A DNA stretch of 51,346 nucleotides from the IMG/VR virus record IMGVR_UViG_3300005515_000005, positions 1 through 51,346 of that record. One strand, written 5' to 3'. This document shows positions 13,890 to 51,275 of this stretch, piece after piece. The notes under the pieces were generated by a model. It was given only the letters and a program-made list of their open reading frames with translations. It was not told the DNA's origin and ran no database searches. The stretch comes from a virus. The translations under genes and the position numbers were made by a program. Within the stretch, counting starts at the first letter, position 1. Every line of letters starts with the position of its first letter.

Positions 13890-14321
13890 ATGGCCGACAC
13901 ACTAGATCCAAAATCGAGATCGGAGCGCATGTCCCGCATCCGCGGCAAGGATTCGAAGCCGGAGCTTGTCGTTCGTCGGCTCGTGCACGCTATGGGATTT
14001 CGGTATCGCCTTCATCGAAAAGATCTTCCTGGAACCCCTGATCTCGTTTTTGGTAATCGCAAAAAAGTAATTTTCGTGCACGGTTGCTATTGGCATCGCC
14101 ACGGCGATTCGTCGTGCAAGCTCGCGCGTCTTCCTAAGTCGAGACTTGACTTCTGGTTGCCGAAGCTCGAACGAAACGCCCAACGGGATGCCGAAAACAA
14201 CGCACGTTTGAAGGCGTTGGGGTGGAAGGAGATGGTCGTTTGGGAGTGCCAGGTCAGCAAAGCGAACCTGCCGCATCTCAGCGACCGAATAAGAAAGTTC
14301 CTTTGCGATGAAGTCGATTGA
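13890..14321 (+). CDS. vsr: Very short patch repair endonuclease (Vsr)
   Basis: The product has 143 residues, full length for the family. It nicks 5' of T in T:G mismatches that arise from deamination of 5-methylcytosine. D51 (PGTPDLVF), H64 and H69 (VHGCYWHRH) sit at the numbering of E. coli Vsr; the N-terminal SERMSRIRGKDSKPE is also typical. It overlaps the next gene, a C5 methyltransferase, by 14 bp, so it protects the sites that enzyme methylates. No clear ribosome site precedes the ATG. TTTTGCA lies about 20 bp upstream. Confidence 0.95.
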   Translation: MADTLDPKSRSERMSRIRGKDSKPELVVRRLVHAMGFRYRLHRKDLPGTPDLVFGNRKKVIFVHGCYWHRHGDSSCKLARLPKSRLDFWLPKLERNAQRDAENNARLKALGWKEMVVWECQVSKANLPHLSDRIRKFLCDEVD

Positions 14322-15456
14322 GCTGTTTGCGGGTGCCGGTGGACTTGGACTCGGATTGCACGCAGCAGGATTCAAGCCTGCAAGCGTGATCGAATGGGAC
14401 GACTACTGCGTCGACACAATACGCGAAAACCAGCAGCGTGGCATGCAGGCTGTGAAGGGCTGGAAGGTCAAGCACGGAGACGTCCGCTCCGTCGATTTCA
14501 GTGCCTTTGAGGGAAAGATCGGGCTGGTTTCCGGAGGGCCGCCATGCCAGCCGTTTTCCATGGGCGGGAAGCACGCCGCCTACGACGACCATAGAGACAT
14601 GTTCCCGCAGGCCATCCGCGCTGTGCGGCAAGCTCGACCGCACGCGTTCATTTTCGAGAACGTCAAAGGTCTAACGCGCGCCACGTTCAGAAACTACTTT
14701 GAATACATCCGCCTGCAGCTCGAGCACCCCGAGATCATTAAAGCCGAAGACGAATCCTGGCATGATCACCTCTCTCGGCTCGAGCAGCACCATACCAGCG
14801 GCAGCCGTGAAGGACTCAACTACCGCGTCGTCACGCAACTCTTGAACGCCGCGAACTATGGGATCCCGCAGAAGCGCGAGCGCGTCTTCTTCGTGGGAAT
14901 TCGGGAAGATCTCGGCAAGGCATTCCATTTCCCACATGAGACGCATTCTCGCGAATCCTTGTTGTGGGATCAGGTGCTCGGCGATTATTGGGATCGGCAT
15001 AGGATTGCCAAGAAGGACCGGCCTGAGATTGTCGCGAGCGATCGCATCAGCAAGATGTCGATGCCGGACGAGCTGCCGTGGCGGACGGTAGCCGACGCAC
15101 TCCTCGGCCTCCCGGATCCAGAGAAGAAGACCCCCTCCGACATTATCATCCACAATCATCGCTTCCAGCCTGGTGCCCGCTCGTATCCGGGGCACACTGG
15201 CAGCCCGCTTCACGAGCCAGCAAAGACCCTCAAAGCTGGTGTCCATGGCGTTCCTGGCGGCGAGAATATGCTCCGTCGTCCTGATGGCAGCGTTCGCTAC
15301 TTCACTGTGCGTGAAAGCGCGCGGCTGCAGACGTTCCCCGACAACTATGTCTTCCATGGGTCGTGGACAGAGACGATGCGGCAGCTCGGCAATGCCGTGC
15401 CGGTCGAACTTGCTGCCGTTGTCGGCCGCAGCGTGGCCCAGCAGATCGGAGCCTGA
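14308..15456 (+). CDS. Type II DNA (cytosine-5) methyltransferase
   Basis: The product has 382 residues. Motif I ELFAGAGGLGLGL (5..17), motif IV with catalytic C80 (GGPPCQPFS), motif VI ENVKG, motif VIII QKRERVFFVG, motif IX region EPAKTLKAG and motif X QLGNAVPVELAAVVG are all present. It is the protective partner in a restriction-modification set: vsr before it (14-bp overlap) and a GIY-YIG endonuclease after it (3-base gap). If the endonuclease is Eco29kI-like the target may be close to CCGCGG, but specificity cannot be read from the sequence. Confidence 0.95.
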   Translation: MKSIELFAGAGGLGLGLHAAGFKPASVIEWDDYCVDTIRENQQRGMQAVKGWKVKHGDVRSVDFSAFEGKIGLVSGGPPCQPFSMGGKHAAYDDHRDMFPQAIRAVRQARPHAFIFENVKGLTRATFRNYFEYIRLQLEHPEIIKAEDESWHDHLSRLEQHHTSGSREGLNYRVVTQLLNAANYGIPQKRERVFFVGIREDLGKAFHFPHETHSRESLLWDQVLGDYWDRHRIAKKDRPEIVASDRISKMSMPDELPWRTVADALLGLPDPEKKTPSDIIIHNHRFQPGARSYPGHTGSPLHEPAKTLKAGVHGVPGGENMLRRPDGSVRYFTVRESARLQTFPDNYVFHGSWTETMRQLGNAVPVELAAVVGRSVAQQIGA

Positions 15457-15458
15457 GA

Positions 15459-16232
15459 TTGACGGAAGGTTACGTCGAGTTCGAGTTCGATTTGCCTTCG
15501 GCCCTGCTCCAGAGTCTCGTGAACGAGTTCGCGAAGATGGACTCGGCCTCGCTGACGCACCAGCACACGATGCAGGTGCCGGACGAACAAGGCGTCTATC
15601 AGCTCCTTGTCGGCGGTCAGGTCGTGTATGTCGGCAAAACAGACGCCGACTCCGGCCTCAGGGGACGTTTGTCGAAACACGCGTGGACCATCCAGCATCG
15701 CCAGAACTTGAAGCCCGATGACGTGCAGTTTAAGTGCGCTCGCGTTTTCGTCTTCACGGCGATGGACTTGGAAAAGCTGCTTATCCGGCACTACGCGCAG
15801 ACGGCGGACGTGTGGTGGAACTTCAGCGGCTTTGGATCGAACGACCCCGGCCGCAATCGAGACCAGACCGAACTGAAGGCCGCAGGATTTGACGCCGTCT
15901 ATCCGATCGATCTCGACCATCCCGTTGGCATCAAGACCGATGGTGGCGTTCCGGCGGGGCGGGTTCTGGATGAGCTGCGTTCCGAGTTGCCCTACACCCT
16001 TCGAGCCGAAGGTGACGGCAGCAGAGGTCGCCGGCCGCACCCTGACCTCCTGAACAGCATCGTTGAGCCATTCGTAGTGAAGCCATCGACCACCCGTGAA
16101 GTACTCACCTCGGTATTGAACGTCCTCCCGGAAGGATGGCAGGCTACCGCACTGCCGGGGCGAATTATCATGTACCGAGAAAACAGAAATTACAGCGCGG
16201 GCGTTGTCATCGGGCGTAGCGGCGAGCGCTGA
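15459..16232 (+). CDS. GIY-YIG restriction endonuclease, Eco29kI-like
   Basis: The product has 257 residues from the TTG at 15459, 2 bases after the methyltransferase stop, with GGAG at 15448..15451. The alternative ATG at 15537 would trim the N-terminus. The GIY-YIG core reads GVYQLLVGGQVVYVGK (45..60), R70 and H74 in GRLSKH, a downstream E in MDLEKLLIRHY and N in WWNFSGFGSNDPGR. This last segment is like that of the Eco29kI family of type IIP enzymes. It is somewhat longer than Eco29kI. The downstream gene converges with a 6-base gap. Confidence 0.85.
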   Translation: MTEGYVEFEFDLPSALLQSLVNEFAKMDSASLTHQHTMQVPDEQGVYQLLVGGQVVYVGKTDADSGLRGRLSKHAWTIQHRQNLKPDDVQFKCARVFVFTAMDLEKLLIRHYAQTADVWWNFSGFGSNDPGRNRDQTELKAAGFDAVYPIDLDHPVGIKTDGGVPAGRVLDELRSELPYTLRAEGDGSRGRRPHPDLLNSIVEPFVVKPSTTREVLTSVLNVLPEGWQATALPGRIIMYRENRNYSAGVVIGRSGER

Positions 16233-16238
16233 AACGAC

Positions 16239-16907
16239 CTACTGCGTGACGAGGTCGGAAACGATGTCCATCTCCTCCACCCACGACCGCCATAGGTAAT
16301 CCTTCGTCGCAGGATCCGTCCACTTCATCACATCGGAAGGATGCTTGAAATCAGTGTCCTGGTACCGAACGCGTGCGGCCCTGACCATGGTTAGGGTGTC
16401 GCCGCAGACGTGCGCGCTTGCGTTTCTGCAGGTCTGCAAGTCCTTCAAGGAAGTTACGCCGGCGAAACCGCTGAGCATCGTGCCAGAATTCGTGGGAGCA
16501 AGGCCTGCGACGATCAGATTAGCCTTGCCGACATCACCCCAGGTTGGCTCCTGATGACGGCCTTTCACGGCCTTGATCTTCGTCACGGGCTTCGATTGTG
16601 CAAGGAGTTGCGCAACGTAAGCAATCTCCAGCTCCGAGTTTCCGTTGTAGGCTGGCGAGGACACCGCGACGCCGGCGGTTGTGTTCGCACCCCTCGTCGC
16701 GCCCATGATCGCGTCCCGGCAGAACTCGCACCACGCTTGCCACAGGGAGGAGATCAGGCCCTCCTGTAGAGCGAAGCGGTCGACCGTCTTCGTCACCGAC
16801 GGCGACAGGACGTGGCGCTCGAACGCCTTGTCCAGAGTCGTCACGCGCATCAGGAGCTTGCTGCGGAGTTGATCAAAAGAGATGGGCATATGCCGGGTCT
16901 TGGACAT
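16239..16907 (-). CDS. HEPN-like putative RNase, partner of DUF262 protein
   Basis: The product has 222 residues; the start is ATG 16907 or ATG 16889. It is mostly helical and carries C-R161-N-A-S-A-H166, the R-x4-H signature of HEPN ribonucleases, in the setting LKDLQTCRNASAHVCGD typical of RiboL-PSP-type HEPN domains. The gene overlaps the end of the DUF262 gene by 35 bp. HEPN effectors paired with a sensor are a recurring plan in toxin-antitoxin and abortive-infection systems, so this is probably the effector of a two-gene defence unit. No named system is claimed. Confidence 0.6.
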   Translation of the reverse strand: MSKTRHMPISFDQLRSKLLMRVTTLDKAFERHVLSPSVTKTVDRFALQEGLISSLWQAWCEFCRDAIMGATRGANTTAGVAVSSPAYNGNSELEIAYVAQLLAQSKPVTKIKAVKGRHQEPTWGDVGKANLIVAGLAPTNSGTMLSGFAGVTSLKDLQTCRNASAHVCGDTLTMVRAARVRYQDTDFKHPSDVMKWTDPATKDYLWRSWVEEMDIVSDLVTQ

Positions 16908-17949
16908 CGACGCCGATGGCGCGGAGGATGGACATCGTGCGTGCGTATCTTCTCGGGAGGCGGTTCACTGCGGCCTCGCAGCCCCAGACGTACCTCTCGT
17001 ACGGTCCGTCCACCTCCTTCGCCTCGTGCGCCTGCGCGAGCGCCAGAAGGTTGTTGACCGCCTGGTTACGATCTGCAACGAACCGTCCGTGACTCTGGAT
17101 ATTGTATTCTCCAGTGATCTGGGCGATCCCGAACCGAGAGTGCAGTAGAGCCGTTACAAGCGAGTGGAGAGCGTATGACTTCATCATGTGGGTCTCCCTG
17201 AGATCGCCCAGCTCTCCACCGATGAAGTCAAAGACGCTTTTCAAGTCCGAGTAATAGTTGGCACCGTTTGGGAAATCGTCGTCGTAATGCTTGTAGAGAC
17301 GGGTCAAGTCGGCGGCGCTCGTGCTAATGATTCCGCGTTCCATGGCAAGAACGCTCTCGGAAATCAGTTCGGCGTCGGCCATACGGAGTATCTGCCGATC
17401 CGTGAAGACACCGAACTGCACGAAAAACTCGCTCAGTCCGTCTGACATCTCGTTGACGAACCACTTGAACTGACCCTGATACGTCGAGTGCCGCTTTTCC
17501 GGCTCGTTGAGGGGCAGCGTGTAGGCGTTCATACGCCGGAACATCTGGAGGATTTCTGCTCGCGTAGCATTGCGGATGACGTCCACGCTGACGGCGTAGC
17601 CCATAAAGCGATCCTGATCCTCGTCAGGAAGCTGCGCGAAGGTCATCCCACGGAACCGTGACTCGCCCTTGATCTCGAACTCGTTGTTGAAAAAGCGCCG
17701 GATCGTCGTGATGCGCTGTTGGCCGTCGACTATCTCCTTCCGCATGCGGCGGTCGGGACGGTTGAGGAACTCGTAAAGGTAAATCTTCGGGAACGGGTAG
17801 CCTTCGAGGATCGTATCGATGAAATAAGACGACGGACCATGCGGCCAGAGACCAGTGCCGCGCTGGTACTCGCGGTTCACGATAAGCTCCTTGCGTTCGA
17901 GCATGTCGATGATCTCGGCAACGGAGTAGTTGTTCGTATTGATTTGCAT
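16873..17949 (-). CDS. DUF262 (GmrSD N-terminal/ParB-like) protein
   Basis: The product has 358 residues. N-terminal hallmarks of DUF262 are VNREYQRGTGLW (24..35), F-P-K-I-Y-L-Y-E and the defining DGQQR box (75..79, VDGQQRITTI); downstream come MFRRMNAYTLPLN and EKRHS. DUF262 domains occur in GmrSD-type and other phage-defence nucleases, where the box is linked to nucleotide use. There is no C-terminal HNH (DUF1524) domain. Instead the next gene supplies a HEPN-like protein, so a split system is likely. RBS AAGGATC; 28 bp after the exported-protein gene. Confidence 0.85.
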   Translation of the reverse strand: MQINTNNYSVAEIIDMLERKELIVNREYQRGTGLWPHGPSSYFIDTILEGYPFPKIYLYEFLNRPDRRMRKEIVDGQQRITTIRRFFNNEFEIKGESRFRGMTFAQLPDEDQDRFMGYAVSVDVIRNATRAEILQMFRRMNAYTLPLNEPEKRHSTYQGQFKWFVNEMSDGLSEFFVQFGVFTDRQILRMADAELISESVLAMERGIISTSAADLTRLYKHYDDDFPNGANYYSDLKSVFDFIGGELGDLRETHMMKSYALHSLVTALLHSRFGIAQITGEYNIQSHGRFVADRNQAVNNLLALAQAHEAKEVDGPYERYVWGCEAAVNRLPRRYARTMSILRAIGVDVQDPAYAHLF

Positions 17950-17977
17950 GAGTAGATCCTTGGATGGCGGGCCGAGA

Positions 17978-18553
17978 CTACTTCGACTTCCACCCCTTAA
18001 GAAACTGCGAAAAGAAGACTTTGATGCTATCGTTTACATAGGGAGCGATATCCCGCGCCACTTGCTGATCGCCGAAGCCGGCTCCGATGGTCGTCCTCTC
18101 CCAGAAGACCAGGTCTCCACCCCTCGGAGACGCTTCCGGGTCGCCCGGCTTGGCGTCCTGTTCGATGGCGGTGCTGTAGAATTTCTCGGCAGTCAGACGA
18201 ACATGCACGCCGAGAGGTCCGTTCCTGCTCGACGTCGCGCTGGTGTCTAGTTCGAGAATGAGGGGCGTGCCCAGGCTGCGGGAGTTGACGGTCATCCGGA
18301 ACATGTCCTCGCCATCGGAAACCCGATGCGGGATCCCGGAGTTCTCGGCGAGATAGTTGAACTCGGCCGAAGCCGACTGACAAATGGCGTCCCTGACGAG
18401 CGTGTTGGCGGCGTTCGGCACACAATGCAGAACGATGCCCGTCCAACCCTTAAATTGCGCGATGACGAACTGTCGTTCCTCGTCGTCTTCCTGCGCGTGC
18501 GCTGGGTACGTTGTCACAGCAGCTAGCGCGGTTGCTATCAGTAGTCCTTTCAT
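17978..18553 (-). CDS. Exported protein with signal peptide, unknown
   Basis: The product has 191 residues from the ATG at 18553 after GAGGGG. A clear signal peptide (MKGLLIATALAAVTTYPAHA, cleavage after AHA) precedes an acidic stretch and a periplasmic domain with two cysteines (LHCVPNAAN... AICQSA). It lies 28 bp upstream of the DUF262 gene on the same strand, so the three genes may be one operon. Whether it shares in defence or is merely neighbouring cargo is unknown. Confidence 0.65.
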   Translation of the reverse strand: MKGLLIATALAAVTTYPAHAQEDDEERQFVIAQFKGWTGIVLHCVPNAANTLVRDAICQSASAEFNYLAENSGIPHRVSDGEDMFRMTVNSRSLGTPLILELDTSATSSRNGPLGVHVRLTAEKFYSTAIEQDAKPGDPEASPRGGDLVFWERTTIGAGFGDQQVARDIAPYVNDSIKVFFSQFLKGWKSK

Positions 18554-18613
18554 GAGCCCCTCAACCCTACGTCGGCAAGTCGTAGCATGGAGCACGATCG
18601 ATGTCAGCGGTTT

Positions 18614-18629
18614 CCGCCGGCCGTTTGCA
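18614..18629 (+). promoter_or_regulatory. GCCGGCCG-TTTGCA upstream element (copy 5)
   Basis: CCGCCGGCCG (18614..18623) is followed by TTTGCA, then CCCAGC. The start at 18685 is 56 bp downstream. It lies in the divergent gap between the exported protein and the gene at 18685. Confidence 0.4.
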
Positions 18630-18684
18630 CCCAGCATGGACGTCGCCCACCATTGTCAGCAGGCACCAACACGAGGAGGGAAAG

Positions 18685-19059
18685 ATGCCGGAGATCATTC
18701 AATGGAAGTCGATGGAACCGCTGCAGGAGGGCTGGCGCGGCTTTCTAGGCGACGTATGTATCTTCGCGGTCATCCCGTGGGCGGAAGAAAAGGAGCGGTG
18801 GCCGTGGCAGCTTCAGAATTTGAGGCCGGACCTTATTGAGCAGGAGGCTGTGGTAGCGGCCAGAACGAGCGACGAGGCCAAGCATTTCGCGGAGATGGGC
18901 GTCACCTGGTTCCTGAGGCGCGCGCGGCTTTTGCCGGCGACTGATGAGCAGCTCGACGCCACCATCCAATCGTATCGTAACCGAGAAGCAGAGCAGGATC
19001 GATACCGGTGGCTTCGCGAGACCGGATGGTGGGAACCCGTCGAACCAGTAGCAGACTGA
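18685..19059 (+). CDS. Small protein rich in Trp and Glu, unknown
   Basis: The product has 124 residues from the ATG at 18685 after GAGGAGGG. It has many Trp and Glu residues (IQWKSMEPLQEGWRGFLGD, EEKERWPWQLQNL) and a helical C-terminus (AEQDRYRWLRETGWWEPVEP). It stands alone between an upstream element and a perfect terminator, a classic moron layout. Function unknown. Confidence 0.65.
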   Translation: MPEIIQWKSMEPLQEGWRGFLGDVCIFAVIPWAEEKERWPWQLQNLRPDLIEQEAVVAARTSDEAKHFAEMGVTWFLRRARLLPATDEQLDATIQSYRNREAEQDRYRWLRETGWWEPVEPVAD

Positions 19060-19063
19060 TCCC

Positions 19064-19085
19064 AAGCCGCCTCCGGGCGGCTTTT
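19064..19085 (+). terminator. Rho-independent terminator of the 18685 gene
   Basis: AAGCCGCC (19064..19071) and GGCGGCTT (19076..19083) form a perfect stem with a TCCG tetraloop, ending in TTTT. It lies 5 bp after the stop codon. Confidence 0.9.
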
Positions 19086-19135
19086 CCATATCGTCGAAGC
19101 CCATTGGCGGTTGCGCGAAGTGCTGCTGCGACACG

Positions 19136-20074
19136 TCATGCGGTGTCTATAGTCCATCCCGCCAGATCGAAGTGTTGGTTGACGACCTCTTCCAAGGCTT
19201 GGTGTAGGACATCCTGAGAAGCGAGAAGCGAAACGAGATCGCGCGCTGCCTCTTTCTGATCTGATCCATAAAGAGCCAGGGCGCCTCGCACTACCGCCTG
19301 GCGTGAAGTCCTCTTCTTCAGCGTGCCTTTGAAACGCGACTTGTTCACACCGAGGGCGAGCCAGATGCCGCTGATGCCCACATCGACCTCATCCGCAAGC
19401 ACCCGATCCTTCTGAAAAATAGACGGCTGCTTTAGAATGTGGTCCAAGCTATGCAGATCGTTTCCTAGGATGAAGGCAAGCATCCTGCCTGCGGTGACTT
19501 GAGTATGCTGCGCGCGATCGGGACACGACGGGCCGTTGAGCCGGCAGTAGTTCGGGTTATGGGTGATGAACTCAAAGCCACTGGACTCCGAAAGATCAAG
19601 GTTTCGGTCGATCATGAATTCGGACGTGCACTTCGTGTTCCAGAACCACTCGCCGTTTTGCTCCTTGAGCGGCCCGCTGTCCGTCTTCGGATCGTAGGGC
19701 GTCACCAGCTTCGAGGAACTTAGGTCACGATCCGTCATCAGCATCCGATAAGCTGGGGGCGAGTACTTGTCCATCGCCTCGACCCAGTAGAACCGTCTAC
19801 CCTCCGCAAGTGTCTCCCACGGGAAGCTGAATTGCACATTGCCGTAGATCGAGCCGTACGCCCAGGTGTTTGCCGACAACCATACGACCGACATCCTCGA
19901 CTTGTTCAGCCTGCTTTCGTCGTAGACAAGACCTGCCCGGATTCCTTCGTCTTCGAGAATGCGCCGGGCGGCGGGTATATGAACGATATGATGCACGGTT
20001 TCGAGCTTCGCAGTGCCGGTCGGGGTCTTGCCTCCCGACGGTAGCTTCACCTCGTAATCATCCCATTCCGCCAT
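19136..20074 (-). CDS. Unknown protein, possible ADP-ribosyltransferase-like fold
   Basis: The product has 312 residues from the ATG at 20074 after GGAGGATC. The N-terminal 120 residues have H-H-I-V-H-I-P-A-A-R-R-I-L near 28, SVVWLSANTW near 62 and YGNVQFSFPW near 77. This order (an early His in a strand before a helix, a Ser-rich strand, an aromatic 'FSFPW' strand) recalls ART-fold toxins such as the DarT group, but the match is by eye and weak. The middle has CRLNGPSCP and the C-terminus is helical. It is monocistronic, with its own upstream GTTTGC element on the minus strand near 20126. A defence or toxin role is inferred from the neighbourhood. Confidence 0.55.
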   Translation of the reverse strand: MAEWDDYEVKLPSGGKTPTGTAKLETVHHIVHIPAARRILEDEGIRAGLVYDESRLNKSRMSVVWLSANTWAYGSIYGNVQFSFPWETLAEGRRFYWVEAMDKYSPPAYRMLMTDRDLSSSKLVTPYDPKTDSGPLKEQNGEWFWNTKCTSEFMIDRNLDLSESSGFEFITHNPNYCRLNGPSCPDRAQHTQVTAGRMLAFILGNDLHSLDHILKQPSIFQKDRVLADEVDVGISGIWLALGVNKSRFKGTLKKRTSRQAVVRGALALYGSDQKEAARDLVSLLASQDVLHQALEEVVNQHFDLAGWTIDTA

Positions 20075-20125
20075 GCCGATCCTCCTGTTTTCGCCGACTT
20101 AGCAGGCGTCCTCCTGCATGGCAAA

Positions 20126-20141
20126 CGGCCGGTGGCTTGCG
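20126..20141. promoter_or_regulatory. Divergent GGCCGG/TTTGC elements (copy 6)
   Basis: On the plus strand CGGCCGGTGG is followed by CTTGCG, 46 bp before the start at 20188. On the minus strand the overlapping CCGGCCGTTTGCCATGC (starting near 20132) precedes the start at 20074 by about 45 bp. Each of the divergent genes thus has a copy. Confidence 0.4.
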
Positions 20142-20187
20142 TCCAGCGCAGCCGGCGGCATGGGAGACACCAGCGAGAAGGAGCGAG

Positions 20188-20292
20188 ATGTCGAACGAGA
20201 TTAAGAAGGGAACCGGCGACGCCGCGTTCGACGACCGGGACTTTTTCGAAGATGAAATCGCCCAGGAGGAATGGGTGAAGAGGTCGGTGTAA
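20188..20292 (+). CDS. 34-residue acidic peptide gene
   Basis: The ATG at 20188 follows GAAGGAGCGAG. The product (MSNEIKKGTGDAAFDDRDFF...) is acidic with a basic end (EEWVKRSV). It is preceded by the upstream element and ends 20 bp before the convergent oxygenase gene. The good ribosome site and own control element make it credible despite its size. Confidence 0.55.
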   Translation: MSNEIKKGTGDAAFDDRDFFEDEIAQEEWVKRSV

Positions 20293-20311
20293 GAACCATT
20301 TCTTAGCTTGG

Positions 20312-20905
20312 TTACGCCGGGAAGAATCGGCCGTCCTCATCTTCACGCGACAAATAAACAAATGAACCTATTGCATATTTTGCGGCCCCCGTTGGCGAGT
20401 TCCCCCGGTGGACGTGTGTCCAAAAAGGCGGAAACAGCACAATCGTACCTCTCTTCGGCGTGATCGAAATTTGATCACGCCAAAACTCTAGTTCACCGCC
20501 TATGACACTGTTGAGATAGAGGATTGCGGTTAGCGTCCGACGGTCCCTGCCTCGCTGTAGACTATCCATGTGCCACACGAACCCCCCGCCGGGTTCTACC
20601 CGCTCTACCCTCGGCTTCGTCCAAATGTGGGGTTCCTTCAGTATCGCCGACAAGCCTGGATGAGCTATCGAAGCCTCTATCGCTGCTTCAGAGAAACGCT
20701 GAGAGATGAACTCTTCAAGCAACTCGCCATTCTTTAGTTGAGATAGCAGTACCACCTCGCCTCGTCGGGCCACCGGATTTGAAGAATTGTAAACATGGCT
20801 TGGGATTCGCTGGTCCATGGCGTCAAATCCGTCGATGATCGTTTGGCATGTAGCCTCATCAACGGCGTCCTCGAACACCCACGTCTCGTTGGCAACCTCC
20901 TTCAT
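20312..20905 (-). CDS. 2-oxoglutarate/Fe(II)-dependent oxygenase (prolyl-hydroxylase-like)
   Basis: The product has 197 residues from the ATG at 20905 (GTG 20911 possible); AAGGGGG precedes. The double-stranded beta-helix motif is seen as WHMD (metal ligands H114 and D116 in the longer numbering), then RTLTAILYLN, GGELEFW, a distal His in FPPFWTHVHRG (H166 or H168) and a 2OG-binding Lys in AAKYAIGSF. It should hydroxylate a protein or small molecule using 2OG and O2. It is divergent from the Tat/MauG pair and may act in the same cargo pathway. The base composition looks AT-richer than the phage genes. Confidence 0.8.
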   Translation of the reverse strand: MKEVANETWVFEDAVDEATCQTIIDGFDAMDQRIPSHVYNSSNPVARRGEVVLLSQLKNGELLEEFISQRFSEAAIEASIAHPGLSAILKEPHIWTKPRVERVEPGGGFVWHMDSLQRGRDRRTLTAILYLNSVIGGELEFWRDQISITPKRGTIVLFPPFWTHVHRGNSPTGAAKYAIGSFVYLSREDEDGRFFPA

Positions 20906-20982
20906 ACTCACCCCCTTGTCGCCCCACTTGCTGTATGAGACTATGCGAATGCACGGATATGTTGCAACAGGGGGGAAAGGTC

Positions 20983-21369
20983 ATGGACAACGAAATTACT
21001 CGTCGTGTACTTCTTTCTACATCGCTTGGAATGATTGCAGCTACAGTTGCAATGCGCGAGGCATCAGCGAAAGTATCGGCAGATGGGCAACGCGTAGACG
21101 TCCTGATCAATATCAAATGGAATGACGGTAAAGGGGTTCAAGGTGCGAGAGTGTTTGATCACATCCCCAACCGCCTGCTCGGAGAAACTAATGCAGCGGG
21201 AGATTTTTTCTTTACGGCGGATTTTGGAACAGTAATTCGCCTAGTTGAGCCAAAGTACGGATTGCAACAATCTCTCTTCAGCGTTGCAGGAGTTCCTCGC
21301 ACAGATAAAAGCGAGGTGCCTGGTTCCAACGCGATGACCTCGAGCTTCGCGGAAGGCTGGACTCTTTAG
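20983..21369 (+). CDS. Tat-type exported beta-sandwich protein, possible MauG substrate
   Basis: The product has 128 residues from the ATG at 20983 after GGGGGGAAAGG. The N-terminus has a twin arginine (EITRRVLLSTSLGMIAAT) and an ASA-like cleavage site near 30. The mature domain (VDVLINIKWNDGKGVQGARV, then LLGETNAAGDFFF) resembles carboxypeptidase-regulatory/MetallophosN-like beta sandwiches. Only two Trp remain, one internal (KWND) and one in the last residues (EGWTL). Its stop is 4 bp before the MauG-like gene, so it may be the partner that enzyme oxidises, but this is inference. Confidence 0.65.
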   Translation: MDNEITRRVLLSTSLGMIAATVAMREASAKVSADGQRVDVLINIKWNDGKGVQGARVFDHIPNRLLGETNAAGDFFFTADFGTVIRLVEPKYGLQQSLFSVAGVPRTDKSEVPGSNAMTSSFAEGWTL

Positions 21370-21373
21370 GCTG

Positions 21374-22279
21374 ATGCCTAACCTCTACGTCTGCTTATTC
21401 CTATCTGCCATTGCTTTCTGGAGTTCACAGGCATCGGCCTCCGATGCCTGCAACCCCGCCGCATTGGGCAAACATCTGTTCTCAGATCGAAAAATCTCAC
21501 TAAACGCGGTGTCGTGCAGCAGTTGTCACCGCCCTGAAATGAGCTACCAAGACGGTGAGGAGCGTCCTCTAGGTAGGGCCGGATTAGTTCTCCCGCGCAA
21601 TACACCAAGCCTGCAACACATTCTCCTTTATAAGAGCTATGGTTGGGATGGTCGGAACCCGAAACTTTCAGACCAGATTAGGGAAGTCCTACTTGCGCCG
21701 ACAGAAATTAACCTATCGGCGGAAGCCCTAAGGCTTTCGATTTCTGACGTTTGCCCTGGCACGCTAAATGGACGCCAACATGACGATGCTCTCGCGTTGG
21801 CAGTCACCGCGCTTGCCGAATACGTCGAAGGGGTCGCATCATTCTCCAAGCCATGGGCAGAGCAGAATTTGTCTTCAAATCTTCTCCGCGGCTATCAAAT
21901 TTTCAAGCGCACCGGTTGCGCCGCTTGCCATCCCGCACCTACCTTCACTGACGGCGGTTTTCACGATATTGGGCTTGAGCGCCGGCGTATACTGCCGCAA
22001 TCGTCAGGCCTAACGTCCCAGGGACAAACCTTTACCCTTGGCATAGATTACGGCCGCGGCAATGTTGTCTCTGGCAACAATGCTGTTTACGCGTTCAGGA
22101 CACCAACACTTCTTGATGTAAACCAGACCGGACCCTTCATGCATGACGGTCGATTTCATTCGCTTCGCGAGGTAATTGACTTTTTCCGGAGGCAAGAAGC
22201 GTTCAGCGTTACAGAGGAAGAGCAACAGCTCTTAATCGAGTTCATTTCAAGCCTTTCATCGAGAGGTGGGGGCCCCTGA
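21374..22279 (+). CDS. MauG-like dihaem cytochrome c peroxidase family protein
   Basis: The product has 301 residues. A signal peptide ends near SQASA (22). Two haem-binding CxxCH motifs lie at C48-SS-C51-H52 and C182-AA-C185-H186, the spacing of dihaem bacterial cytochrome c peroxidases and MauG. The C-terminal R-T-P-T-L-L-D...GPFMHDGRF is a family landmark. Members reduce H2O2 or carry out long-range oxidation of Trp residues in partner proteins in the periplasm. It is translated right after a small Tat-type protein. This is an unusual cargo for a prophage. The long plain coding stretch shows no frameshift. Confidence 0.88.
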   Translation: MPNLYVCLFLSAIAFWSSQASASDACNPAALGKHLFSDRKISLNAVSCSSCHRPEMSYQDGEERPLGRAGLVLPRNTPSLQHILLYKSYGWDGRNPKLSDQIREVLLAPTEINLSAEALRLSISDVCPGTLNGRQHDDALALAVTALAEYVEGVASFSKPWAEQNLSSNLLRGYQIFKRTGCAACHPAPTFTDGGFHDIGLERRRILPQSSGLTSQGQTFTLGIDYGRGNVVSGNNAVYAFRTPTLLDVNQTGPFMHDGRFHSLREVIDFFRRQEAFSVTEEEQQLLIEFISSLSSRGGGP

Positions 22280-22380
22280 GACCCTGCCCCTAATGCGGGT
22301 AATTCGCGACCCCAAGTGAACTCTCCTTCCGATTTTTTTTCTCATCGATCAGCATCAGCACCCCCACAGGCATTGTCGTT

Positions 22381-23054: not shown

Positions 23055-25229
23055 ATGCCTTTCGCCATTCCCGCGGACCAGACCGCCCCTCAGCAGCTCC
23101 TTGGACACCTCAATTTCGAGGAAGGGCTCGCCGAATTCTCGCGGGAGATCGAGCGTTACAAGCGCGACTATCTCGAATGGCCGGAGTTCGAGGACGCCGT
23201 CACGTGGATTTTCAACAATATCGAGCTTCCGAAGAGCGAGACCAGTCGCCCCGGCAAGATGAAGCTGACCGTCTACCAGCGCGAGATGGCCATCAACATC
23301 ACGAATCCTAAGTGCAAGCAGCTCACGATCCTGAAAGCCGTCCAGATCGGCTACTCGAAGGCCCTGAAGGCCATCTATGCCTACGTCGTGGGCTATCTTG
23401 CGAAGCGCTGCGCGGTCGCGTTTCCGACCAAGGACACAATCAAGCGCTTCTGGAAGGACGAGATCGTCGACATGTACCGGAGCGTCCGCGCGCTTCAGGA
23501 GCTTATCCGCGACGCCGAGAAGGGTACGGCCTCCGACACGATGGCCGAGCAGCGCTTCATCAACGGCGCTATTGGGTACTTCCGGTCGGCGTTCAACGAA
23601 GACGACCTCCAGTCCTTCACGTCCGAAATCAACATGGCGGACGAGGTCGACCGCGAAGGGTGGCAGCCGCGTGCAGGAACGGCCGGCAACAAGCTTAATC
23701 AGTTCCGTAACCGCGGCACGGATTTCGAGCAGTCCAAGCTCCTCGTTGGCAGCACCCCAGGCGTCCGTCACCAGTCGGTCATCTGGCAAGAATGGCTGAT
23801 GTCCGACCAACGCCGACTGCGGGTAAACTGCCCCCACTGCGGCGAGGAGCAGGTGCTGCGCTGGGGTAACAAGGACTCGCGGTTCGGCTTCAAGTACACC
23901 TGCAACGAGGCCGGACAAGTTGTTAACGTGTTCTATCGTTGCGACAGCGCCAAGCAGTGCCGCATCGTCCAGGACGACCGTGACGATATGGTCGATGCCG
24001 GGCGTTACGTGGCCACCGAAACAGCGAAGACTCCAGGCAACATCGGCATCCACATCCCTGCTTGGATTTCGCCGTCGCCCGGAGCCGACTGGCTAGGCAT
24101 CGCCCAGCGCTGGGTCAACGCCCAAGGTGACACCGAACGCATGAAGGAATTCGTGTGCTTCTGGATGGCGGAGCCGTGGGATGAGTTCGACAGCCGGACA
24201 CTCAGCGACACGGGGCTGGCGGCGAACCGCCGTCCATATCCTGCCGAGGTCCCGGACGACGTCATTGCCATCGTCGCCGGCGGTGACGACCAGACCAACA
24301 AGGAAGGCGACGGGTTTTTCATCCAGGCGTCTCGTGAAATTCAGATTGTCGGCTTCAATAGGCGTTCCGAGCCTCGTGTGATCGGGCACTGGGTAATCAA
24401 GGGCGAAGTCGGTGACCCCGAGGCCGACGCCGAATACCGCGCAATCCTTGACCGTCCTTACCGCAACCGACGCGGACAGGAGTTCTACGTGCAGGCCGAG
24501 GCGATGGACGGCGGTGGTCACCATCCCGACGCCACATGCCGTTTCGCGGCTTCGTTTCCCAAAAACCGTCTCATCATCGCGATCCGCGGAGCAAGTCCCG
24601 CGAAGGGTACGAGGCTGCCCGCCATGCTGCCGGAAAAGGCCACGAAGTCCGCCAAGGGCAACTGGTTCTGGACAGTGGATACTCAACGCGCCCGCGACCT
24701 TGCCGCTTCGAAGCTTGTGCTGGTCGGCGACTCCGCGCCCATGTGGCCGTCGTCGATGCCAGAGGGCTTCGAGGAGAAGATGACGAGCGAACATCAGGAA
24801 CTTCAGAAGAACGGCGGTTACTGGTGGACCGAGAAGCCTGGACGCAGGTCCGAGGAGGAATGGATGTGCTTCTCCTACGCCTTTGTCGCGTGGGAACTGC
24901 TCCGGAGCAAGCGGCCAAGACGTTGGGGCAACTTGAATCTTGCAGCGGAGCGCCTCGGAATACCGGATATCAGCCACGACCCCGACACGGGGGAACTCGA
25001 CTACGATGGTCCGGACATGTCCGTGATGGCAGTCGAAGCCCGCGCCAAGGCCGAGGCCGAACCGAAGCCATTGGCTCCTGTCGTCGTGCGGCAGCCGAAG
25101 GGTCGGGAACAGAAGCCCGCGCCGACCATGCAGCCCGTGATGCCGACCCCGGTTCCGGCGGCACCGGCCGTGGTGCAGCAGCAACCTCGTCGGGCGGCAC
25201 GCATCGTCCGATCGAGTTCAATCTGGTGA
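23055..25229 (+). CDS. Terminase large subunit (lambda GpA family)
   Basis: The product has 724 residues. It is the ATPase and nuclease that packages and cuts DNA. The N-terminal ATPase shows LTILKAVQIGYSKALKAIYA (about 90..109), the deviant Walker A of GpA proteins. A zinc-ribbon-like NCPHCGEEQVLRW ... YRCDSAKQC lies near 257..303 and the nuclease region near 400 (IVAGGDDQTN). The C-terminal 70 residues are a low-complexity Pro/Ala/Lys tail (EAEPKPLAPVVVRQP...). GpA-type terminases go with lambda-like head genes, which follow here. Confidence 0.95.
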   Translation: MPFAIPADQTAPQQLLGHLNFEEGLAEFSREIERYKRDYLEWPEFEDAVTWIFNNIELPKSETSRPGKMKLTVYQREMAINITNPKCKQLTILKAVQIGYSKALKAIYAYVVGYLAKRCAVAFPTKDTIKRFWKDEIVDMYRSVRALQELIRDAEKGTASDTMAEQRFINGAIGYFRSAFNEDDLQSFTSEINMADEVDREGWQPRAGTAGNKLNQFRNRGTDFEQSKLLVGSTPGVRHQSVIWQEWLMSDQRRLRVNCPHCGEEQVLRWGNKDSRFGFKYTCNEAGQVVNVFYRCDSAKQCRIVQDDRDDMVDAGRYVATETAKTPGNIGIHIPAWISPSPGADWLGIAQRWVNAQGDTERMKEFVCFWMAEPWDEFDSRTLSDTGLAANRRPYPAEVPDDVIAIVAGGDDQTNKEGDGFFIQASREIQIVGFNRRSEPRVIGHWVIKGEVGDPEADAEYRAILDRPYRNRRGQEFYVQAEAMDGGGHHPDATCRFAASFPKNRLIIAIRGASPAKGTRLPAMLPEKATKSAKGNWFWTVDTQRARDLAASKLVLVGDSAPMWPSSMPEGFEEKMTSEHQELQKNGGYWWTEKPGRRSEEEWMCFSYAFVAWELLRSKRPRRWGNLNLAAERLGIPDISHDPDTGELDYDGPDMSVMAVEARAKAEAEPKPLAPVVVRQPKGREQKPAPTMQPVMPTPVPAAPAVVQQQPRRAARIVRSSSIW

Positions 25230-25234
25230 GGCGG

Positions 25235-25486
25235 ATGCGCAGACGATTTGTGAACTGGTCAGTCCCTGAACTTGAACAGGCCATCCGGGAGCTTGAAGAA
25301 GCGCAGACATCCGGCGCCGCAAGCGTGAGCTATGGCGGCCCCGGTGGCGGCTCGGTGACTTGGGTCACCTATGAGAATTTCGACAAGATCCTGACCGACC
25401 TCTATCGCGCCCTCGATCGCGCTACCGGCGTCGCGACGCCTCCGCATGTCCGCTTCATCAAGACAGTCACGAGGAGCGGCTACTGA
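25235..25486 (+). CDS. Head-tail joining protein gpW
   Basis: The product has 83 residues from the ATG at 25235 after GGTGAGGCGG. The pattern WSVPELEQAIRELEEAQTSG, then SVSYGGPGGGSVTW and ILTDLYRALDRATG, fits the small helical gpW family, which closes the portal after packaging. It sits between terminase and portal as in lambda. Its stop overlaps the portal start. Confidence 0.8.
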   Translation: MRRRFVNWSVPELEQAIRELEEAQTSGAASVSYGGPGGGSVTWVTYENFDKILTDLYRALDRATGVATPPHVRFIKTVTRSGY

Positions 25487-27126
25487 TGGCCACCCGCAAG
25501 TCCGCCACCACCAGGGTCGTCCCGGCATCAAGAGGCTTGAAGCCGGCCGCCAATTCCAACGTCCAGGCCGAGACGCGCGTGATCCGCCCGCTGTCTTCGA
25601 AGCGCTCGGCCGACTTCACGAGCATCTCAGCGTTCAAAGGCCACTCCTCTTATCACGAAGCGGCCTCGCACTCCGCCCAAGTCGGTGTCGTCCGCGACGC
25701 TGGCCCGAACGCCATGAACGGCGAGATCCCGCGCATGCAGGCGCGCTCGCGCTGGTCGTATGCTAACGATCCATTCTTCCGGCAGGGTGTCGACCAGTTC
25801 GCAAAGAATGTGATTTCGTACGGCATCAAGCCACGTCTCAAGGACAAAGGCCTTCGAAAGCTGTGGAACACGTTCGTTCGCGAGGCCGATATCCGTAAGC
25901 GCTTTGACCTTTACGGCATGCAGAGCCGCACCGCGACGTCGCTCGGGTCCGACGGCGAATCCTTCATCCAGTTCGTGCCGGTCGATCCCGACACGACACG
26001 CTCTGGGCTCGATTTCAAGCTGAAGCAGATCGAAGCCGATCAGGTTCCGGTCAACTGGACAATGCCGACGACGGAGGACACCTTTACGATTTCCGGTGTG
26101 GAACTCGACTACAACGAGACCCCGCAGGCATACTGGGTGTGCCCTTTCCATCCGAAGGACATGTTGGGGGCTCTCGGTCAGGACTTCCTTCCGCAGCGGA
26201 TCGAGGCCTCCGAAATCCTTCAGATCTTCCTCCCCGACCGACCGGGTGCCGTCCGCGGCAAGCCGATGGGCGCTCCAGCCATCAATACGACCGACAACCT
26301 GCGCATTTATGACATCGCGGAAATACGGCGCAAGCAAGGTGGCGCGATGTTCGGTGGCTTTTACAAGAGGCCGGCGAATGCCGACGAAGGATTCAACGGC
26401 ACGGCTGCCAACGGCGCGCCCGTCGATTTCCAAGCCCTCGAGCCGGGTGCCTTCATCGAGGTGCCGGAAGGATACGACGTCGTCCTTTCACAGCCGCAGC
26501 AGAACGATCCGAACTATCCGCTCTTCCGGAGAGAGGGCCTATCGGCGCTGGCCGTGTGCTTCCATCTCTGCGTCGAGCAGGTGAACATGCAGTTCGACAA
26601 GTTGAACGACCGGACTTACCGAGCCGTCATGCTCGAGGTGCAGCGCGGTATCGAGAGCATCCAGTACCACGTCTTCGTCCATCAGTTCCTGCAGCCGGTC
26701 CTCGAGCGCGTGATCTCGTCGGCATATCTTCTCGGCCTCTGGTCCCCGGAGCCGGGCAAGCGCGTCGACGATTATTTCAACGTCGAGTGGATTGCTCCCG
26801 CCCGCGGCCACATCAATCCCGTTCAGGAAGTCGCTGCGTTCACGGCCGCCGTCCTCGGCGGGTTCACGAGCCGCAAGCACGTTGCGAACTCTTTCGGTCA
26901 GGACATCGAAGATATCGACGAAGACAACGCGATCGACCAAGAGCGCTCGAAGCTTCTAGGGCTGTCGTACTCCGTGTACCCGGCGCTCCAGAAGTTCATG
27001 GAGTATGCCATCCAGAAGGCGATGGAAGAGGATGCCGAGCAAGACAAACAGGCCGGTATCGACGCGAGCGGCGATGCCAGCTACGCGGACGACCCCGCCA
27101 CGGATGGGTCCATCGGCAGACGGTGA
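25486..27126 (+). CDS. Portal protein (lambda gpB family)
   Basis: The product has 546 residues. The middle is typical of Phage_portal_2: WSYANDPFFRQGVDQFAKNV (about 85..104), the YGMQSRTATSLGSDGESF strand region, and PQAYWVCPFHP. It forms the dodecameric ring through which DNA enters the head. The C-terminal tail is acidic (AMEEDAEQDKQAGIDASGD). The last 46 bp are overlapped on the other strand by the methyltransferase moron, so that gene was inserted or extended tail-to-tail. Confidence 0.93.
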   Translation: MATRKSATTRVVPASRGLKPAANSNVQAETRVIRPLSSKRSADFTSISAFKGHSSYHEAASHSAQVGVVRDAGPNAMNGEIPRMQARSRWSYANDPFFRQGVDQFAKNVISYGIKPRLKDKGLRKLWNTFVREADIRKRFDLYGMQSRTATSLGSDGESFIQFVPVDPDTTRSGLDFKLKQIEADQVPVNWTMPTTEDTFTISGVELDYNETPQAYWVCPFHPKDMLGALGQDFLPQRIEASEILQIFLPDRPGAVRGKPMGAPAINTTDNLRIYDIAEIRRKQGGAMFGGFYKRPANADEGFNGTAANGAPVDFQALEPGAFIEVPEGYDVVLSQPQQNDPNYPLFRREGLSALAVCFHLCVEQVNMQFDKLNDRTYRAVMLEVQRGIESIQYHVFVHQFLQPVLERVISSAYLLGLWSPEPGKRVDDYFNVEWIAPARGHINPVQEVAAFTAAVLGGFTSRKHVANSFGQDIEDIDEDNAIDQERSKLLGLSYSVYPALQKFMEYAIQKAMEEDAEQDKQAGIDASGDASYADDPATDGSIGRR

Positions 27127-29585: not shown

Positions 29586-30590
29586 ATGTCCTTCCAGATC
29601 GCCGATGTCTTCAAGAATGACATCTTCACCGTCCGCTCGATGATGGACTTCATCGACGAGCGGCCGTACGTCCCCGAGCAGCTCAGCAAATGGCTCCCGT
29701 GGAACTCGGCCGGCGAGCTGTCGCACCTGACCTCGATCGAGTTCAGGAACGGTACGCTCGACATCATCCCGGAAGCGGAGCGCGGCGCCCCCGGCTACCG
29801 TGGCAGCGATCCGACGCGGTTCGCGATTCCGGTCGAAATCCCGCACTATCCGCAGGAGAAGTCGCTCTTGGCAGAGTCCGTCCGCGGCGTTCGTGCATTC
29901 GGATCTGAGCTCGTCGAGGTTTTCGAGACCAAGCGCAACGAGATCCTGACCGAATTCAACGTGGCCAACCGCCTGACCTGGGAGCGTGGTCGCGCTGCCG
30001 CGATCACCGGCATCCTGTACCGAGCGGACATGGTAACCCCGCTCATTAACTGGTTCGACAGGACCGGAATGACTCAGTCAACTTACGAGATCAACTTCGA
30101 CGACCCGAACACGGAAGTCATCGAAGAACTTACGGATGCCAAGGGTCTCTCTGAAGACAACCAAGGCGATGCTTCCGCGAGCGGCTACATGCTGATCGCC
30201 GGCCGCAACATCCAGAAGAAGATCAAGACGCATCCGTCGGTCAAGACCGGCTACGAGCGTTGGAACGCCGGCGGCCTTTTCCGCGAGGACGTCCGCGATG
30301 GCTTCCCGATCTCGACCGACATCAACGTCGTGACCTACACCCGCGGCAAGATCAACGGCAACTTCCTGATCCATCCAGACGAAGCCTACCTCTGCCCGCT
30401 CATCAACGGCATGTACCAGACCCGCTTTGCGCCGGGTACGGGCATCCAGACCCTCGGTCAGCTCGGCCAGCCGGAATACGTATCGCCGAAGATCCTCGAC
30501 CACGACGAAGGCGTCGAGCTGAAGGCTCAGACGAACCCGCTGTCCTACGTCAGGAACCTCAAGTCCATCGTCAAGATCACCGCGAAGTAA
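29586..30590 (+). CDS. Major capsid protein (lambda gpE family)
   Basis: The product has 334 residues. Typical E-family features are DIFTVRSMMDFIDERPYVPE near the start, PGYRGSDPTRFAIPVEIPHY (about 61..80), LTWERGRAAAITGILY (about 126..141) and the C-terminal PEYVSPKILDHDEGVELKAQ. It builds the icosahedral shell with the decoration protein. A hairpin follows it, as often seen after highly expressed capsid genes. Confidence 0.95.
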   Translation: MSFQIADVFKNDIFTVRSMMDFIDERPYVPEQLSKWLPWNSAGELSHLTSIEFRNGTLDIIPEAERGAPGYRGSDPTRFAIPVEIPHYPQEKSLLAESVRGVRAFGSELVEVFETKRNEILTEFNVANRLTWERGRAAAITGILYRADMVTPLINWFDRTGMTQSTYEINFDDPNTEVIEELTDAKGLSEDNQGDASASGYMLIAGRNIQKKIKTHPSVKTGYERWNAGGLFREDVRDGFPISTDINVVTYTRGKINGNFLIHPDEAYLCPLINGMYQTRFAPGTGIQTLGQLGQPEYVSPKILDHDEGVELKAQTNPLSYVRNLKSIVKITAK

Positions 30591-35296: not shown

Positions 35297-37699
35297 ATGG
35301 CAGGCATGACGCCGGAGATTAGAACGCGTTTTACCCTCGACGGCATGCAGCAGTCGGTCGGGAAGCTCCGCCTTTTCGGGCGTGCCGTATTGCAGCAGTT
35401 CGACACCGTTCGTAGGAAGACCGCCGAAACTTTCGAACCTTTCGCCGCCGGCGTGAAGGCTGCCGAGGACAGGGTCAAGCGCCTCGGCAAGGAAACCGCC
35501 CGAGTGGGTGCCCAAACGGCATTCAAAGGAATTCGGCTCGGCGCACTGGCTTCCTTGGCGAGCGTTACAGCCCTTGGACTGAAGATGGCTGCCGTCGGCG
35601 CAGCCGCAATTAAGTCGAGCAAAGATGCGGCCGAAAGCCTGAATGAAATCGCCATTCAGGCCAAACGGATTTCAGCCACGCCTGAGGAAATCTCGGTGCT
35701 GCGGTTCGCCGCCGAGCGCAATGGGACGGATCTCGATGAGATCGTCACTCAGATCGCTACGATCAGCAGCGAGTTCCTCACTGTGCGCGAAACTATCGGA
35801 AAGGCGGACGAAGCATACCAGCAATTCCTCGGGAACACTGCTCGTCGTGTCGCGATCATGTCCAGGCAGGGTGACCGACAGGGCGTCGTCGACGCGATCA
35901 CGGGATTCGATGAAGCCGCGCTTGAGCAACGCAAAAACTCGCTGATGGCTATCGAGCAGCGCCTTGCCGAAATCGACGGGCTCACGAACCGGATCTTTGC
36001 CTCAAGCGATCAAAGATCGGGCCTGCAGGGGTACATCGCAAACGAAAAGCTGAATCGAGAGCGCGCAGAACTGATCGCCGCTCGTGACCAACTCCAAAAC
36101 GGAGTGGGTCCGCAGGGACAGGCGCTTTTCACATTGCAAGACTATGGTCTCGATGTAGAGCGTGCGTCGCGCGGCGGCGTGGATTCCTTGTACGCGATCA
36201 GCGAGGCCTTCCAAAGGATCTCGGACCCAAGCGAGCGGGCGCGCGTCGCTATGCGATTGTTTGGCGAGGACGCGGGTGTAAAGCTCGTGCCGTTGCTTGC
36301 CGGCGGAAAAACGGCAATCGATGGCTACAGGCGTGAGCTCGAACGGCTCGGCGGGGTGACCACGTCTGACGATATCGTTGTCGGCGATGCGTTCAAGAAG
36401 TCTTCACAGAATTTGCAGACAGCAATCGGTGGGGTGAAGCTCGAGATCGGTCGGCAACTCATGCCGCTCCTGACTGACACGAACAACCAAGTCACCGAAT
36501 GGCTTGTACGCTCGCGCGGCGCTATCGCGTCCTACGTGAAAACCGCCTTCGTTTCCCTGCGCACCTTTGTTCAGGATATCCTCTCGATCCTTCGCGGCGA
36601 CACATCTCAGATCCAGACGAAATGGCTCGACACCCTCGTCAAGAAATCCGCGCTCCTGCGCGAGGTCTGGCTCGACGTCAAGCTACAGATCATAAAGCTG
36701 ATTTCCGGGCAGGATTCCGACTACAAGTGGTTGAACACAATCCGGGACCATCTGCTCGTGATCAAGGCGTTCGCTCTCGACACTTGGGTGGTCATTTCGG
36801 GGGGTAGTGCGAAGGAATTCCCCCTCCTCAACACGCTACGTGATCAGGTCGTTGCATTCGGCAGGAAACTGTCCGACGCCTGGGACCTCTTCAAGGGGTT
36901 TCTTTCCGAAATCCGAGACTTCGCTAAGCCTGTCCTTGATTTCTTTGGCATAGACCCGACCACATTCGCCCTCTTCCTCGGGATCGCACGACTAACCGGC
37001 GTCCTCGGGGGCGTCATGACTGCAGTCAAGTTGCTTGGCGGGGCGTTCACCGGGCTTTTCTCTCTTGGCAGCGGAGCATTGGCCGCTGGTGCCGGGGTCG
37101 CTAGCGCGGGAGCCGCGCTCGGCGGAGCAGCCGCTACCGCGGGTGGGTTCACAGCGAGCTTGATCGGGATCCAAACCGCACTTGGCGGCATTGCACGAGC
37201 GGCTGGCGTCATGGGCGCCGCTCTCGTTGGTGGATTCGCGCTCGGACAGAAAGCCGGAGAAGCTTTCTACAACGCGACCGGCAACCAGGCCGCGTACGAC
37301 AAGCTCATCGACGCACAGACGGCGCTCATAAGGGCGCGCGACAACAACTACCTGAACATGAGACTGAACCGCAGAGAGGAGCGTGACTACGGAACGATGC
37401 GCGCGATCTACGGCCGCGATGGTCAGGACTATTCCTGGCTGAAAACGTCGGCTGAAAGCACGGTAGCTACGCTGCAGAAAATGGATCAGTTGATTTGGGG
37501 TAAACCGCACTACGTCGGTGCAGACGCCGAAGCTCAATACCGTGCCGAGCGGCCCTGGGCATTCCGGAAGGAGCGGCAAGAGGTGGCGAAGCACGTCCAG
37601 GTCGACCTGAACGTGGGAGGGCTGCAGTTCCCAGTTTTCACAGATGACAGCACAGCCGATGGTCTGACCAGAACGCTCGAATCCTTTAATCGCAGGTGA
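35297..37699 (+). CDS. Tape measure protein
   Basis: The product has 800 residues from the ATG at 35297. The N-terminal 120 residues are helical and basic. The region ISATPEEISVLRFAAERNGTD (about 130..150) is a common tape-measure motif for the assembly of Rhizobiales siphophages. Long helices follow, and the region about 560..670 has hydrophobic Gly/Ala-rich segments (AGAGVASAGAALGGAAATAG) suited to membrane insertion on DNA ejection. It sets tail length; 800 residues suggests a tail of roughly 120 nm. It follows the G/GT pair directly. Confidence 0.92.
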   Translation: MAGMTPEIRTRFTLDGMQQSVGKLRLFGRAVLQQFDTVRRKTAETFEPFAAGVKAAEDRVKRLGKETARVGAQTAFKGIRLGALASLASVTALGLKMAAVGAAAIKSSKDAAESLNEIAIQAKRISATPEEISVLRFAAERNGTDLDEIVTQIATISSEFLTVRETIGKADEAYQQFLGNTARRVAIMSRQGDRQGVVDAITGFDEAALEQRKNSLMAIEQRLAEIDGLTNRIFASSDQRSGLQGYIANEKLNRERAELIAARDQLQNGVGPQGQALFTLQDYGLDVERASRGGVDSLYAISEAFQRISDPSERARVAMRLFGEDAGVKLVPLLAGGKTAIDGYRRELERLGGVTTSDDIVVGDAFKKSSQNLQTAIGGVKLEIGRQLMPLLTDTNNQVTEWLVRSRGAIASYVKTAFVSLRTFVQDILSILRGDTSQIQTKWLDTLVKKSALLREVWLDVKLQIIKLISGQDSDYKWLNTIRDHLLVIKAFALDTWVVISGGSAKEFPLLNTLRDQVVAFGRKLSDAWDLFKGFLSEIRDFAKPVLDFFGIDPTTFALFLGIARLTGVLGGVMTAVKLLGGAFTGLFSLGSGALAAGAGVASAGAALGGAAATAGGFTASLIGIQTALGGIARAAGVMGAALVGGFALGQKAGEAFYNATGNQAAYDKLIDAQTALIRARDNNYLNMRLNRREERDYGTMRAIYGRDGQDYSWLKTSAESTVATLQKMDQLIWGKPHYVGADAEAQYRAERPWAFRKERQEVAKHVQVDLNVGGLQFPVFTDDSTADGLTRTLESFNRR

Positions 37700-51226: not shown

Positions 51227-51275
51227 GAAATGGTACGGTTGGTGGGAATCGAACCTACGACCTCAGGTGCCACAA
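51227..51275. repeat. attR: attR core: 49-bp direct repeat within tRNA-His
   Basis: Identical to 65..113. Beyond 51275 the sequence continues into the 5' half of the intact tRNA-His, whereas at attL it diverges. The element between the two cores is 51,162 bp counting one core copy. Confidence 0.95.

Follow-up and report, generated by a model that had tools for sequence, protein, structure and literature searches.

Two overlapping genes on the reverse strand of a prophage form a conserved unit. Their sequences place them in a distinct, unnamed DUF262-HEPN family within a known architecture, and the pair is most likely a two-gene defence system. The window analysed was the whole virus record of 51,346 bases. 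Gene A (16873-17949, minus strand) encodes a protein of 358 aa that Pfam, PADLOC, and an AlphaFold2 model identify as a DUF262/GmrSD_N (ParB/Srx-like) NTPase/sensor protein. Gene B (16239-16907, minus strand) encodes a protein of 222 aa, predicted to be HEPN-like from an invariant motif, an AlphaFold2 model, and VIA-align. At the called starts, the two genes overlap by 35 nt. In the alignment, the relatives of B begin at its seventh codon, and a start at position 16889 is therefore more likely, which would probably shorten B to 216 aa and the overlap to 17 nt. An overlap of 17 nt is also found at the loci L004, L008, L016, L018, and L021. An earlier note on this DNA had described a DUF262 protein with an intact DGQQR box overlapping a helical protein with an R-x4-H motif, and the reading frames, the motifs, and the overlap were all there.

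Bacterial and archaeal genomes were scanned with B, which yielded 16 loci, each with A immediately ahead of B. For viral contigs, single-sequence scans gave no matches, and scans with two-sequence alignments recovered 12 distinct contigs; A adjoins B in 10 of the 10 that have room for both genes, while L005 (starting at B) and L010 (ending after A) are cut off and were not counted either way. By identity, L018 is the same locus as the viral contig L008. In the 25 rows that could be used, the gap between A and B lies between -35 and +12 nt; the duplicate L007 was removed, as was L017, for which the start had been wrongly chosen. The pairwise distances of the A and B proteins are strongly correlated across 24 non-duplicate loci (mirror-tree, r = 0.888), and none of 5000 permutations gave an equally high value; L005, L010, and L021, with a missing or broken partner, were left out, as were L002 and L017. 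A profile search with A in 337 genomes of one class recovered two strong matches (>560 bits), i.e. the Aminobacter locus itself and one that appears to be L020, and both are accompanied by B; this B is not found beside two weak matches in the same genomes (166 and 110 bits). Wherever the scans covered enough DNA to tell, no full-length A stood without B. A and B are thus a conserved, real unit, and the link between them, which the earlier note had deduced from their overlap, is borne out by the conserved co-occurrence and the correlated distances.

According to the record titles, the pair spans Proteobacteria to Verrucomicrobia, Nitrospirae, and Acidobacteria, and the organisms named include Aminobacter, Paracoccus, Klebsiella, Brenneria, Morganella, Desulfobacterales, Verrucomicrobiales, Nitrospirae, and Acidobacteriaceae. 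At the Aminobacter locus (L016, 7-6838), genes for an MmeI-type enzyme, a helicase, and a T5orf172 protein lie directly upstream of the pair, forming a defence cluster. A tblastn search with B matched one of 50,697 phage records (ON470584, with A directly ahead of B) and none of 72,556 plasmid records. The pair is present in 9 of 5426 complete E. coli genomes, all copies being at least 99% identical, and three of the nine loci were inspected (22AR0747, A17, and S1-JOR-02-A). In 22AR0747 and A17, A and B stand alone between the integrase gene (intE) and icd, and the same arrangement is found in ON470584, with icd as the attachment gene. Because the pair stands alone at this site in E. coli, two genes suffice as a unit.

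In the window, a further ORF (17978-18553) ends 28 nt ahead of A. Its product starts with MKGLLIATALAAVTTYPAHA, which looks by eye like a signal peptide, and this putative exported protein had been suggested as a third part of the system. A tblastn search found it at none of the 30 other pair loci (two of the 30 are duplicates). A homologue with 77% identity is encoded on the Rhizobium plasmid pRL11, with no credible match to A or B within 10.5 kb. The absence from the other loci and the pRL11 homologue without A or B argue that the exported protein is a neighbour and not a part of the pair, and together with the stand-alone pairs in E. coli they rule it out as a third component.

Protein A belongs to the DUF262/GmrSD_N family, as it matches PF03235 well above the Pfam cut-off (E = 1.3e-18, 68.2 bits versus a cut-off of 33.2) and contains all three motifs that PMC12137116 names for DUF262, i.e. 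QR, DGQQR, and FxxxN. The motifs are YQR (residues 28-30, 17860-17868), the nucleotide-binding DGQQR box (residues 75-79, 17713-17727), and FxxxN (FRRMN, residues 137-141, 17527-17541), all on the minus strand and each found in all 25 A proteins that were scanned for them. Pfam detected no further domain in A and, specifically, no DUF1524/HNH nuclease domain. A sequence search of the PDB returned only 9jfl, a DUF262 protein, at E = 0.031. The best fold for the AlphaFold2 model of A (pLDDT 91.7) is BrxU (Foldseek, 5.4e-5), and the alignment stops at residue 431 of the BrxU chain, which has 580 residues, after starting at residue 1 (Z 9.4, rmsd 12.1, 293 aligned residues); because of this large rmsd, which reflects two domains that are placed differently, only the domain order can be read from it. 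According to the model, A consists of DUF262 and a C-terminal all-helical domain and lacks the C-terminal (nuclease) part of BrxU. The missing nuclease C-terminus, already proposed for A, is therefore seen both in the Pfam result and in the model.

The GmrSD_N match and the BrxU fold would also suit type IV (modification-dependent) restriction by a divergent system; modified phage DNA would then be cut by the pair, and B would be an accessory or DNA-acting protein and not an RNase. Two-protein GmrSD-like systems are known, i.e. TgvAB and GrwAB (PMC11411939, PMC12137116), and these as well as the type IV enzymes GmrSD, BrxU, and SspE share with A the DUF262 domain with QR, DGQQR, and FxxxN. In contrast, the DUF1524/HNH domain of these systems is found in neither A nor B, for which Pfam identified no nuclease family among 27 proteins, and the RNase-type motif in B (see below) also speaks against type IV restriction, which we regard as quite improbable. 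The only link of the pair to GrwAB and TgvAB is DUF262. Membership in the GmrSD-type IV systems was rejected on the absence of a nuclease domain from A and from the 27 B proteins and on the correspondence of the A model to BrxU residues 1-431.

Within PADLOC, the best model for A is NsnA of Menshen (1.2e-36), followed by PD-T4-2_A (2.4e-12), and each of the two is matched by 26 of 26 A proteins. The resemblance to Menshen (NsnABC) does not extend to the partners, because NsnB and NsnC lie beside NsnA, whereas only the HEPN-like B is found here. The NsnB model matches 14 of 14 control genomes, which we read as recognition of a common ATPase, and an OLD nuclease is named in Menshen in PMC10952713. 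Menshen was rejected for the pair, as in E. coli nothing but A and B lies between integrase and icd, with no NsnB or NsnC.

For protein B, no family match was obtained with Pfam (above cut-off), PADLOC, NCBIfam, or PHROGs. The alignment of 27 B proteins contains only 12 invariant columns, among them R161, N162, and H166 of an RN(x)3H motif (16410-16427, minus strand), the predicted RNase active site. Since all 27 aligned homologues keep R, N, and H, the motif is more than a chance occurrence. The HEPN motif is given in PMC3710099 as Rx4-6H, where the R is followed by a polar residue (in most cases N, D, or H), and is placed at the end of helix 3; B shows both features, with RN(x)3H at the end of helix 3 or the start of the helix 3-4 loop. 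In the AlphaFold2 model of B (pLDDT 93.6), R161-N162 lie at the end of the helix 152-165, and H166 is the first residue past this helix. In our own reading of the model, this helix would be HEPN helix 3, the helices 11-34 and 41-72 would be helices 1 and 2, and the remainder would be an insert.

When 957 solved chains were re-aligned to the B model with VIA-align, ranks 1-11 were all occupied by HEPN toxins or their complexes (Z 8.2-9.6, rmsd 3.5-4.3, 125-134 aligned residues), and the first non-HEPN chain followed at Z 7.7, from other helical proteins; the top value of 9.6 is below the caution line of the tool for helical bundles (about 13), and such Z values can be reached by shape alone. 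Foldseek gave no significant match for the B model, its best hit (E 1.1) being a HEPN toxin as well, and a sequence search of the PDB with B gave nothing useful (1txx, E = 0.87). The sole HEPN-related hint from Pfam was a weak match to Abi_2 (E = 0.017) in 2 of the 27 members. The motif, its position, and the rank order in combination make a good, albeit not conclusive, case, and B is very probably HEPN-like, in agreement with the earlier proposal. HEPN domains can be non-catalytic RNA binders (PMC3710099), although those mostly lack the motif. From the related families, we infer an endoribonuclease activity for B.

Two further groups of HEPN proteins were compared with B. The Ribo L-PSP-HEPN and MAE_28990 families were described in 2013 as being in an operon with ParB (PMC3710099), a neighbour of a kind like A; the B family differs in that neither PF18735 nor any other HEPN-named Pfam model matched at E 0.1 among the 27 members scanned. 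The nearest solved folds (Z 8.2-9.6) are those of the HEPN-MNT/HepT toxins, which likewise carry an R(x)4H motif.

This similarity to the toxins of MNT-HEPN pairs, as well as the organization as a small operon of two overlapping genes on a mobile element, is compatible with a toxin-antitoxin pair, in which A would hold the HEPN RNase toxin B inactive and stabilize the prophage, and phage defence would be secondary. However, the partner of B is a DUF262 protein and that of the toxins a nucleotidyltransferase, and in the model of B, helices 2 and 3 (in our numbering) are separated by a long insert. The nucleotide-binding motifs of A are kept in 25 of 25 proteins, and to our knowledge the known antitoxins are unlike such a DUF262 protein. 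In Morganella psychrotolerans (L021, 6939-8014), two frameshifts break A next to an intact B; E. coli S1-JOR-02-A shows the converse, a frameshifted B with an intact A, at the same site between integrase and icd (L043, 7062-7713). These are single cases and possibly assembly errors, so that they argue only weakly against a toxin-antitoxin pair. Taken together, we consider a primary toxin-antitoxin function unlikely.

The closest known architecture is that of PD-T4-2 (Vassallo et al. 2022, PMC9519451), which protects E. coli from T4; when it was deleted from its native strain, plating of T4 increased. PD-T4-2 is entered under both DUF262 and HEPN in PMC10952713, where Table 1 gives the HEPN role of DUF262-HEPN systems as N/A. 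PD-T4-2 also consists of adjacent genes for a nuclease-less DUF262 protein and a small HEPN protein with R(x)4H, and, taking B as a HEPN protein, the same order of DUF262 followed by HEPN is found at 16 of 16 genome loci of the pair. In three PD-T4-2-like loci that were fetched, the DUF262 gene is immediately followed by a gene for a protein of 165-169 aa with R(x)4H. The A proteins of the two systems are related across the DUF262 domain (hhalign 98.4%, E = 5.7e-15). In contrast, B is about 50 aa longer than PD-T4-2_B, and the box reads DGQQR in A and DGLQR in the three PD-T4-2-like loci. The PD-T4-2_B model (PDLC04028) matched none of 27 B members, and hhalign of B with three PD-T4-2_B proteins gave a probability of 0.9%, i.e. 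no profile relation. On these two results, with only three PD-T4-2_B sequences in the alignment, membership of B in PD-T4-2 was rejected. The scan with PD-T4-2_B found 0 of 246 genomes in one family and 3 of 398 in its phylum.

The pair had been called undescribed, which applies to the family, as it is in none of the searched libraries, but not to the architecture, since DUF262 plus HEPN has already been validated with PD-T4-2. In the literature, mostly the openly accessible part, we found no description of this pair and no phage or RNA experiment on the family, and no mention of two E. coli protein accessions of the pair.

It is likely that A and B are a self-contained two-gene phage defence system on a temperate phage, in which A senses and the HEPN RNase B acts. 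The defence function and RNA cleavage are suggested by analogy. A would be a sensor of the GmrSD type in which the DUF262 nucleotide-binding and helical domains are retained and the C-terminal HNH nuclease is missing. It may detect something that infection produces, phage DNA or its modification being candidates, and would change its state with NTP binding or hydrolysis, as nucleotide-linked switching is reported for BrxU and SspE in PMC10952713. B would be a HEPN endoribonuclease that stands in for the missing nuclease. After a signal from A, a dimer of B would cut RNA and phage production would stop, probably at the cell's cost. The complex of A and B, the need for a B dimer, RNA cutting, the abortive outcome, and the trigger are likewise put forward by analogy. 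The product of the neighbouring C5 methylase (14308-15456), 5-methylcytosine, can hardly be the trigger, because this would be self-destructive.

More tentatively, and with somewhat less than even confidence, DUF262 proteins may be general infection sensors with exchangeable effectors; here, a DNA nuclease would have been swapped for a HEPN RNase, turning the recognition of phage DNA or its modification into RNA destruction. The profile search with A revealed three arrangements on related DUF262 scaffolds, i.e. with B, with a different HEPN protein, and with a fused HNH-like end. At L046 (1405-3072), a more distant DUF262 protein is followed by a HEPN-like protein with RNHIAH (PF18735 RiboL-PSP-HEPN, E = 0.0036, below the cut-off), and at L047 the C-terminus of a DUF262 protein looks by eye like an HNH nuclease. 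Both arrangements support the view that DUF262 sensors exchange their effectors. As a second, separate DUF262-HEPN family whose two genes form an isolated insert in E. coli prophages, the pair would be a simple two-component test bed, which would show whether a sensor resembling those of type IV restriction drives an RNase. If so, DNA sensing would be linked to RNA-cutting immunity. The pair makes a mechanism so far unsolved testable with two genes.

The pair is carried as cargo by a prophage and lies beside a restriction set; the earlier note had read its position next to this set as a mark of defence cargo. The record appears to be a complete integrated prophage. Copies of a 49-bp direct repeat occupy 65-113 and 51227-51275, and the right copy overlaps a tRNA-His gene (51231-51307); the two copies are probably the attachment sites and would bound a complete prophage of about 51 kb. 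An integrase is encoded at 345-1871, and the head and tail module is lambda-like, with terminase GpA (23055-25229), portal (25486-27126), major head (29586-30590), and tape measure (35297-37699) genes. In the cargo stretch between integrase and terminase, a compact restriction set (13890-16232) of Vsr (13890-14321), the C5 methylase, and an Eco29kI-like endonuclease (15363-16232) is followed by the A-B pair on the other strand.

The pair adjoins integrases and recombinases, as could be expected of genes for prophage maintenance or regulation that have no role in defence. However, it also adjoins restriction genes (L016), and the architecture of DUF262 and HEPN is that of a tested defence system, PD-T4-2, so that a pure maintenance or regulatory role is very improbable and a defence function is preferred. 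No near match to the region 14000-22300 was present among phage records, and an Rfam search of 15300-20000 gave no matches. A 312-aa gene (19136-20074) on the strand of the pair has no family match in Pfam, PADLOC, or NCBIfam. The prophage cargo also contains a MauG/di-haem peroxidase-like gene (21374-22279; Pfam CCP_MauG, 3.3e-24), which is odd for a phage and has no PHROG match at E 0.001, and a 2OG-Fe(II) oxygenase gene (20312-20911), which shares its strand with the A-B pair.
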